Positions 28,838 through 49,670 of a stretch of DNA of 64,000 bases are shown one piece after another. Each line of letters starts with the position of its first letter. Positions within the stretch are counted from its first letter, which is position 1. The notes below the pieces were generated by a model that was not told where the DNA came from, made no database searches, and worked only from the letters and a program-made list of their open reading frames with translations. A program made the translations under genes and the position numbers. The stretch spans positions 62,001-126,000 of the forward strand of contig VGAE01000002.1 in assembly GCA_016870975.1 (NCBI GenBank). The letters run 5' to 3'. The DNA comes from Actinomycetota bacterium (lineage in GTDB: Bacteria > Actinomycetota > Actinomycetes > Nanopelagicales > Nanopelagicaceae).

Positions 28838-30469
28838 TTAAATCAGCCCTGCCTCACGGAGAAATGGGCTTGCCTCACCGGCATAACTGAGATGTAGGGC
28901 GCGTTTTGCGCGAGTAACCCCAACATAGAAGAGGCGGCGCTCCTCATCTATCGGCTCAGCCAGGGGTAGATATCTAGCCGATGCTCCGGCGAGATAGACG
29001 CTCTCCCACTCCAAACCTTTGGCGCTATGTAACGTGGCGATTGTTACTCCAGGAAGATCAGGTGGATTGTTCTGATCAGCGCGCTCCTCTAGTTCTCGAA
29101 GGAATGCTCGCATTGAATCAATTCCATCATTTGATAATTCTTGAGCCAACTGAATCAAAGCTCTTACATATTTATCTTCAGCGCCAAATGATTTTAATAA
29201 GTCCCTTAATTCGCCTAGCCAATCCCCGGATGAGAGTACGGAAGCGCTGCGAATCGCCGCCATCATGGATCTGACATCACCTCTATCAAAGAAGCGTTCT
29301 GCGCTCCGTATCTGATTCTCAATCCCTGCGTTATTCAAGGCCGCTTCAATTGCATCTAGTTGAGAATTGGTACGAGCGAGTACTGCTAGTGATTTAACGC
29401 CAGTAGATATCTCACTCTTAACAGTTTCGGCAAGGGTTAATAGCTCTTCCGCCTCTGAATTTACTGAAACAACTTTAGGTCGATCGCCATGGGTGTTAAT
29501 GGCATCTAAATCGTGACCCAACTCGCCACTTCTCAAGATTGAATTAGCAATATTTATAATTTCTGGGGTGGAACGATAGCCAGCGCTAAGCCGAATAACT
29601 TCAGCGTTTGGATATTTCTTCGTGAAGTTCAGTAAAAATGCTGGAGTTGCTCCAGCAAAAGAATAAATGGTCTGGGCGGGATCTCCAACGACACAGATAT
29701 CTTCGCGCTTGCCTAACCAGAGATCAAGTAGTCGCTGTTGTAACGGAGATACATCCTGGTATTCATCAACAGTGAAATAACGGTACTGATCGCGTATCCG
29801 ATCTCGGATCTCTCTTATCTCCTCTAACATGCCAACTGTTAATAAAAGTACATCCTCGAAATCAATTGCTCGTTCTTGCCGCTTTAAACTCTCATACGCC
29901 TCGTAAGTTTTGGCAATATCCTCAAGTCCAAACTGTTCTCTACTCTTTCGAGCGCTAACTCGAACGGATCGAGAATTAGTCAAGGCAGATTCAATATACT
30001 CATCGCTTGGAATCTGTTGCACTTTGGCCCATTCAATTTCACTCGAAATATCGCGGAGCAGAGTGGGGCTCTTAATTAATTTCAATCCAGCGCGATCAAT
30101 TGCCTCACCAAGAAATGTGCTCTTGCTCGTCAATAGCGAGGGAAATCTGCCGCCGAGGGCTTCCGGCCAGAAATATAGAAGTTGCTTTAGCGCTGCCGAG
30201 TGAAATGTGCGCGCTGCAATTGCGGGAACTCCTAAGGTGCGAAGTCGCGATCTCATCTCACCAGCAGCCCGCGCTGTAAAAGTTAGCGCGAGAATTCGAT
30301 TTGGCTCGATAATGCCAATATCAACGGCGTAGGCCAATCGATGGGTGATTGCTCGCGTCTTTCCCGTTCCAGCGCCGGCAATTACGCAGACTGGACCTCG
30401 AACAGCGGTAGCAACTGTGCGTTGCTCATCATCTAATGCCGCCAGGATCTCTTCAGCGGCCGACATCAC
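28838..30469 (-). CDS. uvrD2: UvrD/PcrA-type ATP-dependent DNA helicase (UvrD2-like, short)
   Basis: Superfamily 1A 3'-5' helicase. The 543-residue protein has Q motif LDDEQRTVA, Walker A AGAGTGKT (about 31-38), VDEYQDVSPLQQ (motif II), GDPAQTIYSFAGA (motif III), TLHSAKGLEWESVYLAG (motif V) and RRLFYVGVTRAKRAL (motif VI). It ends soon after motif VI. Mycobacterial UvrD2 is about 700 residues with a C-terminal HRDC domain, which is missing here. The start overlaps the nudC stop by 17 bases, so the two are co-transcribed. Confidence 0.93.
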   Translation of the reverse strand: MMSAAEEILAALDDEQRTVATAVRGPVCVIAGAGTGKTRAITHRLAYAVDIGIIEPNRILALTFTARAAGEMRSRLRTLGVPAIAARTFHSAALKQLLYFWPEALGGRFPSLLTSKSTFLGEAIDRAGLKLIKSPTLLRDISSEIEWAKVQQIPSDEYIESALTNSRSVRVSARKSREQFGLEDIAKTYEAYESLKRQERAIDFEDVLLLTVGMLEEIREIRDRIRDQYRYFTVDEYQDVSPLQQRLLDLWLGKREDICVVGDPAQTIYSFAGATPAFLLNFTKKYPNAEVIRLSAGYRSTPEIINIANSILRSGELGHDLDAINTHGDRPKVVSVNSEAEELLTLAETVKSEISTGVKSLAVLARTNSQLDAIEAALNNAGIENQIRSAERFFDRGDVRSMMAAIRSASVLSSGDWLGELRDLLKSFGAEDKYVRALIQLAQELSNDGIDSMRAFLRELEERADQNNPPDLPGVTIATLHSAKGLEWESVYLAGASARYLPLAEPIDEERRLFYVGVTRAKRALHLSYAGEASPFLREAGLI

Positions 30470-31358
30470 GCCAACTCTCTTTGGCGACCAACTCGCGAGC
30501 CGATGGACCGCACCAAGAGTTGATCATGGCTCGCGCTACTGAAATGGCTGGTGGGAGTAAGAGTTCTTGGGAAGCAACTTTTGCTTTTAACAGTTCTCTA
30601 TCTAGCCAGATTATCTCTTCAATCTCTTCGCCGTCGGCCTTAGTCGTTCCTGGATTTGAGATTACGGCCTCGTAGGCAATCATGATGGAAGCCGGAAATG
30701 GCCAAGGTTGCGAGCCAAGATATTTCATTGAAATAACTTGGCCACCACACTCTTCAGCGACTTCTCGCAAGACCGTGCTCTCAAAAGATTCACCTGGTTC
30801 GACAAAACCAGCAAAGGTTGAGAATCGTTTTTCCGGCCAAACTTTCTGGCGACCAAGAAGTATTCGATCACTTTCATCTTTTACTAAGACAATTACCGCT
30901 GGGTCAGTCCGAGGATGGTGTTCGGCAGAACAAGCTGAACATTTTCGAATTGCACCCGCCATGCCAATCACTGTTGCGCCGCCACACTTTGCACATCGCT
31001 GGTGGCTCTCATGCCACTGCGCTAGGGCAAGTGCATGAACAGCGGCACCAATCTCAAGATCAGCTAACTTCTTTCCAATGGTACGCAAGCTCTGAAATTC
31101 ATCAGAGGTGCTCTCCACGAAGCCTTTCCGATAAGCGACAAAATAAGGAGCACCAGCTTTATCAAGCCCTAAGAAGAATCGATCGCCCTCAGTTTCTGGT
31201 GAGACATAATCGAGCGACTCATCTTTGATGCGGAATTGATCATCAATCAACTCAATTATTTTTGCCCGTTGCCACATCTCAGCGAGCGCAGCCAGATCAC
31301 CGCGTAGATGAGCCGCGCGGTCTAATTCGCATCGGGAGAGCGGCAGATCGAGCAGCAC
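30453..31358 (-). CDS. nudC: NAD(+) diphosphatase (NADH pyrophosphatase)
   Basis: Nudix hydrolase that cleaves NAD(H) and can remove NAD caps from RNA. The 301-residue protein has a four-cysteine zinc ribbon (CAKCGG ... CSACSAEHHPRTDP, about 122-147) and the Nudix box GFVEPGESFESTVLREVAEECGG (about 187-209), followed by the SQPWPFPASIM motif typical of NudC. It is divergent from the EEP hydrolase and leads into uvrD2 with overlap. Confidence 0.95.
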   Translation of the reverse strand: MLLDLPLSRCELDRAAHLRGDLAALAEMWQRAKIIELIDDQFRIKDESLDYVSPETEGDRFFLGLDKAGAPYFVAYRKGFVESTSDEFQSLRTIGKKLADLEIGAAVHALALAQWHESHQRCAKCGGATVIGMAGAIRKCSACSAEHHPRTDPAVIVLVKDESDRILLGRQKVWPEKRFSTFAGFVEPGESFESTVLREVAEECGGQVISMKYLGSQPWPFPASIMIAYEAVISNPGTTKADGEEIEEIIWLDRELLKAKVASQELLLPPAISVARAMINSWCGPSARELVAKESWRDVGR

Positions 31359-31404: not shown

Positions 31405-32202
31405 ATGAAGGGATTCACGCTCACCTCTTGGAACATTCTCCACGCAATGGCGATACCGCCTAACTCTGGCGGCACTCTGCGGAGCGCCCTTAAATCACTT
31501 CAGAAAGATGTATCGAGCGATCTAATTGCGATTCAGGAAGTTGATGTTCATCAAGATCGCTCCGGTGACGGTAATCAAGTTCGTCAGATTGCCGAGGAGA
31601 TTGGCGCCCCTTATTGGGCCTTTGCGCCATCTATATATGGAACTCCGGGCCAGAAGTGGCATGGCGTTACCGAGGATATTATTTTTGATAATGCTTCACC
31701 GATTCCACCCGATGCCATGTATGGAATTGGCATAGTTTCTAAAGTTCCAGTGAAGCGATGGCATCGGATAAATCTTGGCCGAGCACCAATAGGTATGCCA
31801 TTACTTGTGCCCGGTGAAAAGCGACCTCAATTTATTTATGTTCATGACGAACCGCGATCAGCGCTAGTCGCTGAATTAGAAAACGGTATCTGCGTTACTA
31901 CTACCCACCTCTCATTTGTACCACTGAAAAATTGGAGCCAACTCCGCAAGATCGCAAATTGGGTCGAGAAATTACCGGGACTTCATATTATGACCGGAGA
32001 TTTCAATCTACCGTGGGGGCTTGGTCCGAAGTTAATTGGTTGGAATGATTTAGTAAAAGGTGCAACTTATCCATCATGGAAGCCAAGCATTGAATTTGAT
32101 TACATAATGAGCAAGGAGCTAACAAGTAGCGAGGTAGATGGCAAGATACATAGCCACTTAGGTATTAGTGATCATCTAGCAACAAGCGCAACTATTAAGT
32201 GA
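31405..32202 (+). CDS. Endonuclease/exonuclease/phosphatase family protein
   Basis: A 265-residue single-domain protein of the EEP superfamily. Metal and catalytic motifs are present: SWNILHAMA (about 8-16), IAIQEVDVHQDR (about 42-53), TTTHLSFV (about 170-177), MTGDFNLPW (about 196-204) and SDHLATSA near the C-terminus. No signal peptide is visible, so it is probably cytoplasmic. The substrate (DNA, lipid or phosphoester) cannot be told from sequence. Confidence 0.87.
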   Translation: MKGFTLTSWNILHAMAIPPNSGGTLRSALKSLQKDVSSDLIAIQEVDVHQDRSGDGNQVRQIAEEIGAPYWAFAPSIYGTPGQKWHGVTEDIIFDNASPIPPDAMYGIGIVSKVPVKRWHRINLGRAPIGMPLLVPGEKRPQFIYVHDEPRSALVAELENGICVTTTHLSFVPLKNWSQLRKIANWVEKLPGLHIMTGDFNLPWGLGPKLIGWNDLVKGATYPSWKPSIEFDYIMSKELTSSEVDGKIHSHLGISDHLATSATIK

Positions 32203-32205
32203 TTA

Positions 32206-32748
32206 TCAAGCAACTTCCGCGTTTTTTATTAGATGACTCCGCTTATCGTTAAATGCTCGAAGTAGTTCGCTTCGTTTTCCTTCCGGCATATTGAAGGTAG
32301 CTGCGTAGGCTGACCAAGCTCCTAATTGCTCTTGGGTGGAGCAGGAAATTAATTGTTTCAATAGCGATTCATAATCACCGCTCTGGAGCTCTTTCCTCGC
32401 CACGCCGCGCATCGCCTTTACCATCTCTTCTCGACTTGGTCGCTTTCCTTTAGCAGCAAAACCGAGATTCGCTAGACAGCGTCCGATACTTGATGTTTCA
32501 CAGTTTTCACTCGCGTTAGCTCGATTAATCGGAGAGGTTCCCTCGATCTCAGTTGCGTAGCCAGTTGCCTGGGGGCGAAGTTCTTCTAAGTTTATATAAG
32601 CCTCAGTACGACAGATCCATTCAACGCGTCCGTCAGCGCGTTCAGTTCTATTTAAATCGGTAAGTAATCGACCATTTGGATACTTCGACCAGAATGCGCG
32701 GATTCGGTTCTCAACGGGTTCGTAGTGTTCGAGATTAAAGTAACCCAT
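32206..32748 (-). CDS. Phage-type single-strand annealing protein (Erf-like), tentative
   Basis: A 180-residue protein with the sequence INRANASENCETSSIGRCLA (about 74-93) preceded by TGYATEIEG. Very similar signatures occur in phage-encoded recombination or ssDNA-annealing proteins (Erf-like). From them I infer a role in DNA annealing or repair. Its ATG overlaps the stop of the upstream gene by one base (TAATG), so the two are translationally coupled. No integrase, terminase or structural phage gene is near, and base composition looks like the neighbours, which suggests domestication. Confidence 0.6.
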   Translation of the reverse strand: MGYFNLEHYEPVENRIRAFWSKYPNGRLLTDLNRTERADGRVEWICRTEAYINLEELRPQATGYATEIEGTSPINRANASENCETSSIGRCLANLGFAAKGKRPSREEMVKAMRGVARKELQSGDYESLLKQLISCSTQEQLGAWSAYAATFNMPEGKRSELLRAFNDKRSHLIKNAEVA

Positions 32749-33245
32749 TACTGGCCCACCGCCATTAGCAATTCTTCAGCCATAACTTCATTAGGAGTTA
32801 GCGCGCCAGCTCTAAAAGTTTCGATCAACGCTTCACGTCCGCCATCTTTAAATCTCGTAGCGATATATGGTTCTCTAGAATTAAAGTTAATGAAGTCGAG
32901 AACTTCACCGGTACGTGGATAGATTGCTTTTCCATCAACATTCTCAACACTCTCTAAGATATGTTTACGGAAGGAGTCTCGAACGCTCTCAACAATCTCG
33001 TACTCCCAATTCTCTTTAACCCACGATACAAATAAGTTCTCATTTCGTACTTGGGCGGAAGTTTTTGGATGTACGAGTGAGACTTTTGCAATCTCTTCGC
33101 CAGCAAGCATCGCCGTAGCAGCATCGGCGCCAACTTCATCTAGCGCACTTGCAAATTCGCGTCGCAACCGTTCTTTAGCCTCTTTAGCGGCATCGACAAT
33201 CAAGGTAATGGCCGAGAGTTGGAAGGCGAGTTCACGGAGGTTCAT
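32748..33245 (-). CDS. Phage-type hypothetical protein coupled to the Erf-like gene
   Basis: A 165-residue, mostly helical, acidic protein starting MNLRELAFQLSAITLIVDAA and containing SWVKENWEYEIVESVRDSFRKH (rough residues 85-106) and a GREALIETFRAGALTPNEV tail. I do not know its function. Similar proteins with a preceding charged coiled helix and an x-WV-x-x-N segment occur beside recombination genes in phages; this is memory-based and uncertain. ATG 33245 is chosen; in-frame starts up to 33275 exist. No Shine-Dalgarno is visible. Confidence 0.55.
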   Translation of the reverse strand: MNLRELAFQLSAITLIVDAAKEAKERLRREFASALDEVGADAATAMLAGEEIAKVSLVHPKTSAQVRNENLFVSWVKENWEYEIVESVRDSFRKHILESVENVDGKAIYPRTGEVLDFINFNSREPYIATRFKDGGREALIETFRAGALTPNEVMAEELLMAVGQ

Positions 33246-33297: not shown

Positions 33298-35202
33298 CTA
33301 CTCCTGGTTGGCTTTTTTCGCCTTAGAAGTTAAGCGGGAGCGTTCATTCTGGTCGAGAACAACTTTTCGGATCCGCACATTTACCGGAGTCACTTCGACG
33401 CATTCATCCTCACGGCAATACTCCAAAGCCTGCTCGAGATTTAAGATCTTTGGTGGAATCAAACGTTCATTTTCATCAGAACCAGCTGCGCGCATATTGG
33501 TTAATTTCTTCTCCCGAACAATATTTACATCCATATCTTCTGGGCGCGAATTCTCACCAATCACCATCCCTTCATAAACATCGGAGCCTACTTCAGCGAA
33601 GATGGTGCCGCGCTCTTGTAGTCCAAAGATTGCATAAGAGGTAGCGGTTCCGGCTCGATCTGAGACTAAGGAGCCAGTTGGACGCGTGCGAAGCTCACCG
33701 CTCCACGGTTCGTATCCATCGAAAACATGGTGCAACAATCCGGTTCCACGAGTCTCGGTTAGGAACTCAGTTCTAAATCCAATCAAACCGCGAGATGGAA
33801 CTGTGAAATCCATTCTGATCCAACCAGTGCCGTGGTTGACCATCTGTTCCATTCGTCCTTTGCGAAGCGCCATAAGTTGAGTTATTACACCCAAATAATC
33901 TTCCGGTGCATCGATAGTTAATCGCTCCATCGGCTCATTTAATTTGCCATCGATAATCTTCGTTACAACTTGAGGTTTTCCAACTGTTAGCTCGAAACCT
34001 TCACGGCGCATCATCTCAACTAAAACTGCCAATTGGAGTTCGCCGCGACCTTGGACCTCCCAGGTATCGGGGCGGTCGGTGTTGAGAACTCTAAGTGAAA
34101 CATTTCCGACCAATTCACTATCTAACCAATTCTTTACAAGTCTTGCCGTTAATTTCTTGCCGATTCGGCCAGCAAGTGGCGAGGTATTGATACCAATCGT
34201 CATAGAGATGGAAGGTTCATCGACAGTGATTGGAGGTAACGCGTGAGCATTCTCGCTATCTGCCAAAGTTTCACCAAGAGTAATGGTCTCGATTCCAGCG
34301 ACTGCGATGATGTCGCCTGGACCAGCTTCAGCAACCGGAATTCGCTCCAGACCTTCAGTCATCATCAGCTCAGAAATCTTTACCTTTTCTTGGGAGCCAT
34401 CGCTCTTAAGCCACGTTACAAGTTGTCCCTTCTTTATCTTGCCTTCATGGACCCGGCAGAGTGCCAATCGTCCAAGATATGGCGAAGAGTCAAGGTTTGT
34501 GACATGGGCTTGTAACGGTGCGCCCTCATGAAATTTCGGCGAAGGAATCGTTTTGAAAATTACATTGAAGAGCACGTCAAGATTCTCTTGATCCGGCATT
34601 CCCCCATCGCTCGGTCGATTTAACGAAGCGCGACCAGCTTTAGCAGAGGTGTAGACAATCGGAAAATCAATCTGAGTTTCTGTTGCATCAAGATCTAAGA
34701 ACAATTCATAAGTCTCATCTACCACCGCCGCCACTCGGGCATCTGGTCTATCTACTTTATTAATTATCAAAATAACTGGAAGATTTTTCTGAAGCGCTTT
34801 TCGCAGAACAAATCGAGTCTGTGGCAATGGACCCTCGGATGCATCGACCAAGAGCGCAACGCCATCAACCATTTCTAGCCCGCGTTCAACCTCGCCGCCG
34901 AAATCTGCGTGGCCAGGGGTGTCGATGATATTTACTATCGTGTTTCCACGTTTGACCGCAGTGTTCTTCGCAAGAATTGTGATTCCTTTTTCTCGCTCCA
35001 AGTCCATCGAATCCATTACTCGATCTTGTGATTTAGATTGGTCTTTATGAGCCGCAAAGGCTCCGCTCTGCCAGAGCATGGCATCAACGAGTGTGGTCTT
35101 GCCATGATCCACGTGGGCGATGATTGCGATATTTCGCAATTCATCACGTTCTAGCAGAGGCAATCCGGTGAGGTGAGCGGTTGATTTCTTTATCTCAGAC
35201 AT
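33298..35202 (-). CDS. typA: Translational GTPase TypA/BipA
   Basis: Ribosome-binding GTPase that helps 50S assembly and adaptation to stress. The 634-residue protein has G1 AHVDHGKTT (about 29-37), G2 REKGITI, G3 DTPGHADFGGEV (about 89-100), G4 NKVD, then the EF-G-like domains III and V and the TypA-specific C-terminal domain (GTATSYAIFGLQERG and later). It overlaps ychF by 8 bases on the same strand. Confidence 0.96.
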   Translation of the reverse strand: MSEIKKSTAHLTGLPLLERDELRNIAIIAHVDHGKTTLVDAMLWQSGAFAAHKDQSKSQDRVMDSMDLEREKGITILAKNTAVKRGNTIVNIIDTPGHADFGGEVERGLEMVDGVALLVDASEGPLPQTRFVLRKALQKNLPVILIINKVDRPDARVAAVVDETYELFLDLDATETQIDFPIVYTSAKAGRASLNRPSDGGMPDQENLDVLFNVIFKTIPSPKFHEGAPLQAHVTNLDSSPYLGRLALCRVHEGKIKKGQLVTWLKSDGSQEKVKISELMMTEGLERIPVAEAGPGDIIAVAGIETITLGETLADSENAHALPPITVDEPSISMTIGINTSPLAGRIGKKLTARLVKNWLDSELVGNVSLRVLNTDRPDTWEVQGRGELQLAVLVEMMRREGFELTVGKPQVVTKIIDGKLNEPMERLTIDAPEDYLGVITQLMALRKGRMEQMVNHGTGWIRMDFTVPSRGLIGFRTEFLTETRGTGLLHHVFDGYEPWSGELRTRPTGSLVSDRAGTATSYAIFGLQERGTIFAEVGSDVYEGMVIGENSRPEDMDVNIVREKKLTNMRAAGSDENERLIPPKILNLEQALEYCREDECVEVTPVNVRIRKVVLDQNERSRLTSKAKKANQE

Positions 35203-48827: not shown

Positions 48828-49670
48828 ATGTCGAAGAGAACCAAGATAGACCACTCCAAACCCTTAACACATCGCGAAATTCTCATAATTATGAGCAGCC
48901 TGATGACAGGATTACTTTCAGCAGCGCTGGATCAAACGATTGTCTCTACCGCGCTCAAGAAAATTGTGGAGGATCTCAACGGCTTAAATCACTACTCGTG
49001 GGTGGTGACCGCGTATCTATTGACCTCAACTGCGTCAACGCCACTTTACGGAAAAATTTTGGATCTATATGGTCGTCGCCCGGTTTATCAATTTTCCATA
49101 ATCGTTTTCTTATTAGCATCTTTTCTTTCAGGCGTCGCCTCATCTATGGATCAATTAATTGCATTTCGCGCCATCCAAGGATTGGGCGCGGGCGGGTTAA
49201 TGGGACTTACCTTCGTCATTGTCGGAGATCTCGTTGCGCCCCGCGAGCGTGGAAAATATCAAGGAATGTTTGGAGTGGTTTGGGGACTTTCATCAGTAGC
49301 TGGCCCATTACTTGGCGGCGCCTTTGGTACTGCAATCTTTGGAACTATTCTTAATCAGCAAGTTAATTCAAATTTGAAGAGTGGTTTCGCAGATTTAGCT
49401 AGTAGTAATCCCGATCAACTAGGAAACCTTGATCCATCACTTCTGGACTCACTTCAGAACAACACCGAAGCAATCACAACGCTTTCCCCTCTTCTCCAGA
49501 CCACCGTACTTGAGTCGTTTGCCGGTGCATTTCAAACGATCCTCTGGGTAGCTCTTCCGGTTGTGTTAATCGGTTTTATTTTTGCCCTATTCCTAAAGGA
49601 GAAGCCACTTCAATCGAGCGCCGAACACGCTAGTGCGCGCAGTGATGCTGCCGGCGATTCGATGGGATGA
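48828..49670 (+). pseudogene. Internally deleted DHA2 (EmrB/QacA) MFS transporter
   Basis: A 280-residue frame with the N-terminal five helices of a 14-helix DHA2 drug exporter (SAALDQTIVSTALKKIVEDL, LYGKILDLYGRRP, FRAIQGLGAGGLMG) up to SSVAGPLLGG, then directly the C-terminal part (AFGTAIFGTILNQQ ... helix ... KEKPLQ). Intact members have about 480-530 residues and read GPLLGGFF at the first site and QIGGAFGTA at the second, so roughly 200 residues are missing. The join (about 49314-49321) lies in GGCGGC, consistent with deletion between short repeats. The frame is kept, so a truncated protein may still be made. The next gene overlaps by 4 bases. Confidence 0.8.

Follow-up and report, generated by a model that had tools for sequence, protein, structure and literature searches.

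A phage-related gene pair occupies the adnAB locus in a genus of Nanopelagicaceae

In one genus of the Nanopelagicaceae two short phage-related genes, here called A and B, lie between typA and a gene for an endonuclease/exonuclease/phosphatase (EEP), and gene order across the family shows that they stand in place of adnAB, whose product belongs to the RecBCD/AddAB class and is found in actinobacteria. No AdnAB was found in these genomes, and the viral cassette takes up precisely the position of the host enzyme in nearly all of one genus and in at least two further lineages. We consider it likely, with a probability of roughly 0.6, that a captured phage module for end binding and annealing has displaced AdnAB and serves at double-strand breaks instead. 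The preliminary description of this DNA had missed both the adnAB slot and the absence of AdnAB, which point to the replacement of a DNA-repair machine and not to an additional recombination module alone.

The gene pair and its locus

The window, by which we mean the whole stretch of 64,000 nucleotides that was analysed, carries the pair and the flanking genes collected in Table 1, with ychF following beyond typA on the upstream side of the pair. Reading the ORFs and their junction (GGCCAGTAATGGGT) in the sequence confirmed the TAATG overlap by which the two genes had been said to be joined, and a translational coupling of A and B via this overlap is likely. The ATG start chosen for A is supported by the relatives, nearly all of which begin with MNLRELA or MNLKELA; the mechanical ORF begins farther out at a TTG (33275). 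In the gap between typA and A there is a small G+C-rich inverted repeat, at which a terminator scan made no call. The composition resembles that of the neighbours, as described before (GC 0.465 for the pair and 0.463 for the window), and among the ORFs next to the pair none was noticed that would encode a phage structural protein or an integrase. The nearest of the three tRNA genes of the window is more than 13 kb away. The earlier view of a domesticated module without phage surroundings is supported.

Table 1: Features of the adnAB/pair slot and its flanks in the window.
Feature	Position	Strand	Basis
Gene A, 165 aa, Gam-like, probable dsDNA-end-binding protein	32748..33245	-	PHROG matches, phage relatives, AlphaFold
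Gene B, 180 aa, putative single-strand annealing protein, Rad52/Erf/Sak3-like predicted fold	32206..32748	-	PHROG 11717, AlphaFold, Foldseek
TAATG, gene A stop overlapping gene B start	32746..32750	-	sequence
typA, upstream flank of the adnAB/pair slot	33298..35202	-	flank common to adnAB and pair genomes
EEP gene, bordering the slot downstream in convergent orientation	31405..32202	+	flank common to adnAB and pair genomes
nudC, neighbour kept alongside adnAB in relatives	30453..31358	-	synteny
uvrD-type helicase gene (UvrD2-like), neighbour kept alongside adnAB in relatives	28838..30469	-	Pfam UvrD-helicase 7e-55, synteny

Replacement of adnAB

The preliminary description had proposed to follow the synteny between typA and the EEP gene in relatives, and it is this comparison that revealed the swap: the pair is kept between both flanks, whereas other genera carry adnAB there. 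In the genus of the window as well as in the other carriers the order is uvrD-nudC-EEP(convergent)-[B-A]-typA-ychF, and in other genera of the family it is uvrD-nudC-EEP(convergent)-[adnB-adnA]-typA-ychF, so that AdnAB and the pair share the slot on the typA side and on the EEP-nudC-uvrD side. Thirteen other genera of the family carry the genes for AdnA and AdnB at this locus. In eight of them (L314, L315, L317, L318, L319, L322, L324 and L331) these genes adjoin typA as well as EEP. For the remaining five a partial neighbourhood was covered, and one of these (L323) showed no EEP match. The displaced ORFs of one such relative (G024; 1027 and 1109 aa) contain UvrD and PDDEXK_1 domains and match the PDB entries 6ppj, 6ppr and 6ppu, which we take to be mycobacterial AdnAB, at 7e-119 and 4e-171. 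Both the UvrD motor and the PDDEXK nuclease domain are thus present in the displaced genes of relatives and in neither A nor B; in comparison to AdnAB with its about 2100 residues, helicase motor and PDDEXK nuclease, the pair has 345 aa and no sequence or domain in common with it.

The absence of AdnAB is also visible at the level of whole genomes. In a sample of 60 relatives PDDEXK_1 (PF12705) is absent from all 24 genomes of the genus and from G036, and each of the 12 other genera sampled from the family and each of the 23 outgroups possesses it. In a survey of 151 genomes of the family, each at least 80% complete and most of them draft metagenome assemblies, from which the absence of AdnAB is read, gene A occurs in 16. 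Fifteen of these carriers lack PF12705 and none of the 16 has an AdnAB-type protein, while 133 of the 135 genomes without gene A possess PF12705 and two have neither system. The mutual exclusion of A and PF12705 gives a Fisher p of about 1e-19, but since the genomes are not independent, what counts is how many separate lineages show it. One pair carrier (G091) initially qualified as a genome with both systems and was rejected, as its PF12705 match is a stand-alone protein of 251 aa and not AdnA or AdnB. This PD-(D/E)XK nuclease (L329:1465-2220) from a genome without AdnAB, together with small stand-alone PDDEXK_1 ORFs in G029 and G030, is noted here because a protein of this kind is a possible candidate for a nuclease partner of the pair.

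To count these lineages, trees of the flanking genes can be used. In the typA tree there are three changes between the adnAB and the pair state, all forced by well-supported (starred) branches, and the ychF and EEP trees require three changes each, two of them being forced for ychF and one for EEP. According to all three flanking-gene trees the swap is therefore found in about three lineages, with the direction of change between the two states not being rooted. In the tree of B the host sequences group as a single clade, separate from those of phages (SH-aLRT 90), and the tree of A gives no decision. Either a single capture moved between lineages through exchange across the flanks that they share, or related captures or reversions took place more than once.

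Conservation of the pair

Among the 60 relatives searched, gene B is present in 21 of the 24 genomes of the same genus and in one genome from another genus of the family. Gene A was found in 20 of the 24 and in the same outside genome, with an additional weak match in one outgroup genome, and the genomes without a match for A or B are fragmentary or of low completeness. The two genes are adjacent and at the same place in every relative in which both are covered. Median dN/dS values of 0.028 for A and 0.030 for B (from pairs with usable dS) indicate that both are under strong purifying selection. Adjacency, low dN/dS and presence throughout the genus together argue for a chromosomal pair that has been kept for long and against a leftover. 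Housekeeping genes border the pair in every genome where the flanks are covered, and an active or recent prophage was rejected on account of these neighbours and of the lack of a nearby tRNA gene. In one assembly (G015) the pair is seen twice, terminally on contigs C3 and C43, which most likely reflects overlapping assembly of a single locus rather than a duplication.

Gene B

Gene B belongs to no Pfam or NCBIfam family and has no sequence relative in the PDB, and it matches two PHROGs of unknown function including PHROG 11717 at 3e-32. The signature that had drawn attention to this gene, INRANASENCETSSIGR, is indeed present in B, and the pair carrying it is conserved across the genus. The conserved core of the family comprises Y9, V12, R15, G63, A65, E67, N75, E81 and N82 and the motif E84-T-S-x-I-G-R-x-L92. 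From 94 relatives of B a few match the PHROGs ‘RecT-like ssDNA annealing protein’ (3e-6) and ‘single strand annealing protein’, and one shows a weak match to Pfam Rad52.

An AlphaFold model based on the alignment of these 94 sequences (mean pLDDT 81.5, about 80-96 in the core) predicts a helix, three strands and a long helix (H12-22, E27-36, E42-51, E61-68 and H73-97) followed by a helical C-terminal part. The protein can be divided into an N-terminal annealase core (residues about 9-110) and a host-specific helical C-terminal domain (about 120-180). The core of the annealase superfamily has been described as a three-stranded sheet that is traversed by a helix (PMC11783212), and the predicted fold of B shows this arrangement of the Rad52/Erf/Sak3/RecT superfamily. 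In a Foldseek comparison with predicted viral structures the model matched Essential recombination function proteins (2.8e-9 and others), SAK3 (1.9e-5), Exo8/PDDEXK (2.7e-4), RecT (4.7e-4) and Rad52/59/22 (1.3e-3), and every match below 2e-3 that bears a functional name is either an annealase or a nuclease with an annealase-like domain. Against solved structures in the PDB no fold match below 1e-3 was obtained, the best ones being dsRBD folds. As the pairing domain of Rad52 is filed by SCOP in the dsRBD-like fold, these matches of B would agree with the assignment.

The preliminary description had called the gene Erf-like, which is correct for a phage-type annealase as judged from the predicted fold and does not extend to Pfam ERF (PF04404). 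For the latter no hmmscan match was found, the family is absent among those matched by the 94 relatives, and hhalign of B against a phage ERF profile gave a probability of 0.1%. We therefore assign B, on the basis of its model, to the Rad52/Erf/Sak3 annealase superfamily and not to Pfam ERF. When the 60 relatives were searched for Pfam ERF none was found, so that B does not represent an additional copy alongside a canonical Erf.

The C-terminal part of B (window 32206-32400) is helical in the host, and several phage relatives (L060, L061 and L258) contain cysteines there (CDHG...C...C). A single pairwise hhalign comparison between the host C-terminus and that of phage ERF proteins partnered with A gave an E value of 0.002 at a probability of 5-13%, which is a hint that the host helices might be derived from a phage ERF C-terminus. 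Among the structural matches, a phage protein named Exodeoxyribonuclease 8 (BFVD A0A6J5S1P5) aligns with the annealase part of the B model, suggesting a natural fusion of annealase and nuclease. Relatives of B with about 40-48% identity also occur on Gemmatimonadota contigs (L100-L128) in a conserved chromosomal cluster without gene A, in which two further ORFs follow B in most of the ten loci compared; possibly this is a second chromosomal use of the B annealase family.

Gene A and its phage relatives

Gene A matches PHROG 5168 and 11955, both of unknown function, and gave no Pfam match and no PDB fold match. The PHROG 2205 ‘Mu Gam-like end protection’ is matched by 23 of 33 relatives of A with a best value of 8.7e-5, and by A of the window itself at 0.006. 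The AlphaFold model (pLDDT 89.8) begins with a long helix, after which comes a mixed alpha/beta region, and phage relatives are annotated as ‘dsDNA binding protein’, ‘Ku-like dsDNA break-binding protein’ or ‘Mu Gam-like protein’. A is thus probably a distant Mu-Gam-like protein and a putative binder of dsDNA ends, with its membership in Gam being weakly supported. Its similarity to Mu Gam consists of a weak profile match, a likely end-binding role and a helical N-terminus, whereas it lies below Pfam detection and matches no solved structure. A whole-genome search with PF07352 (Gam) found no match anywhere, and as the controls were equally silent it is uninformative. Membership in Ku (PF02735) was rejected, since no match appeared at E values up to 1.

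The closest phage relatives reach 54-57% identity for A and up to 57% for B. On environmental phage contigs relatives of A with 54-57% identity have a gene for a Pfam ERF protein (7e-25) directly behind them. In prophages of M. abscessus A precedes ERF and in Streptomyces phages (Raleigh, Darolandstone) it comes after ERF, the genes usually overlapping, and in one M. abscessus prophage an A relative adjoins a RecA-like recombinase. Mu-Gam homologs have also been described upstream of erf-ssb modules in surveys of Firmicutes phages (PMC8093625). Another set of phage contigs (IMG/VR L258-L270) shows the same two families as the host, with a B relative first and an A relative slightly overlapping its end, and other B relatives are located near a lambda-type exonuclease gene (phiPsal1) or near exonuclease and SSB genes (LL-Ku, ctDrO704). 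From these neighbourhoods A appears as a standing partner of annealases and B as filling the annealase position. The idea that the first gene could be a nuclease-inhibitor partner gains support from the PHROG matches of the A family and from its place next to ERF in phages. The host pair differs from the phage Gam plus Erf/SSAP modules in being chromosomal, in having no ssb, exonuclease or replication genes alongside and in taking its annealase from a family other than Pfam ERF, and from the environmental phage pairs in the reversed gene order and in the helical instead of Cys-containing C-terminus of B.

Proposed role of the pair and alternative explanations

If the pair acts at the ends of double-strand breaks, its task would be the same as that of AdnAB, and from the exchange at the locus we infer a functional takeover. 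In the proposed mechanism A would bind and shield broken dsDNA ends like Mu Gam or Ku, and B would coat ssDNA exposed by another nuclease and anneal it to complementary DNA, with or without RecA. Binding of Mu Gam at double-strand ends is known to block the loading of RecBCD (PMC12407980). RecA was found in every genome of the genus searched and RecO in all of the more complete ones. The stronger version of this model, in which a free-living lineage has repeatedly exchanged AdnAB for a phage Gam-plus-annealase cassette at one locus and break repair now depends on a viral end-binding and annealing pathway, is tentative, and we would give it slightly less than an even chance.

The pair encodes neither a helicase nor a nuclease and is hence unable to perform the work of AdnAB by itself. 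This fact is also the starting point for a different explanation, namely that the swap is real but AdnAB was lost and the pair is used for something else, such as the integration of ssDNA during natural transformation or the rescue of replication forks. SSAPs act on ssDNA of any source, and the retained RecA and RecO could repair breaks without AdnAB. Yet the same exchange is seen in about three lineages in the three flanking-gene trees, which would be difficult to account for if adnAB and the pair had nothing in common in their use, and we regard this explanation as unlikely, though to be taken seriously.

A role of A mainly as a Ku-like end-joining factor, which would bridge ends for a housekeeping ligase with B aiding micro-homology annealing, is improbable. 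Pfam Ku was found neither in the genus nor in the one other family genome sampled (G024), one phage relative of A bears the Ku-like annotation mentioned above, and Mu Gam is a relative of Ku that can mediate NHEJ of host DNA (review PMC8987985). But the Gam membership on which this role would build is itself weak, the phage partners of A are annealases and not ligases, and G024 is also without Ku, yet has AdnAB and no pair. The pair as an element of phage conflict (superinfection interference or defence) or as a prophage leftover at this locus by chance would fit the close phage relatives of both genes and the interaction of DNA-end-binding proteins with defence systems such as Gabija (PMC12407980), but is very improbable, because the lack of phage flanks, the one conserved housekeeping slot, a dN/dS of about 0.03 and the near-universal presence in the genus are unlike the sporadic pattern of defence genes or leftovers.

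The capture of phage recombination genes by bacteria is already known, for example from RecET of the Rac prophage in E. coli (review PMC8987985), where phage genes are likewise used by the bacterial chromosome. Rac occurs sporadically, can still be recognised as the remnant of a prophage and stands beside an intact RecBCD, in contrast to the genus-wide host pair, which has taken the place of the RecBCD-class enzyme. In a partial search of the literature we did not find a Gam-plus-annealase pair that takes over the slot of a RecBCD-class enzyme throughout a genus. If function follows the exchange of genes, a helicase-nuclease of about 2100 residues could be traded for about 345 phage residues in a streamlined genome, and the genus would offer a testable natural model for Rad52-like annealing substituting for recombination of the RecBCD type. 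Recombination rate, susceptibility to phages and genome engineering in these abundant freshwater bacteria might then be affected as well.

Additional observation

Apart from the locus described above, the window contains an ORF for a DHA2-type MFS transporter (48828-49670) of just 280 aa, which seems to have been shortened internally, as it lacks the middle membrane segments.
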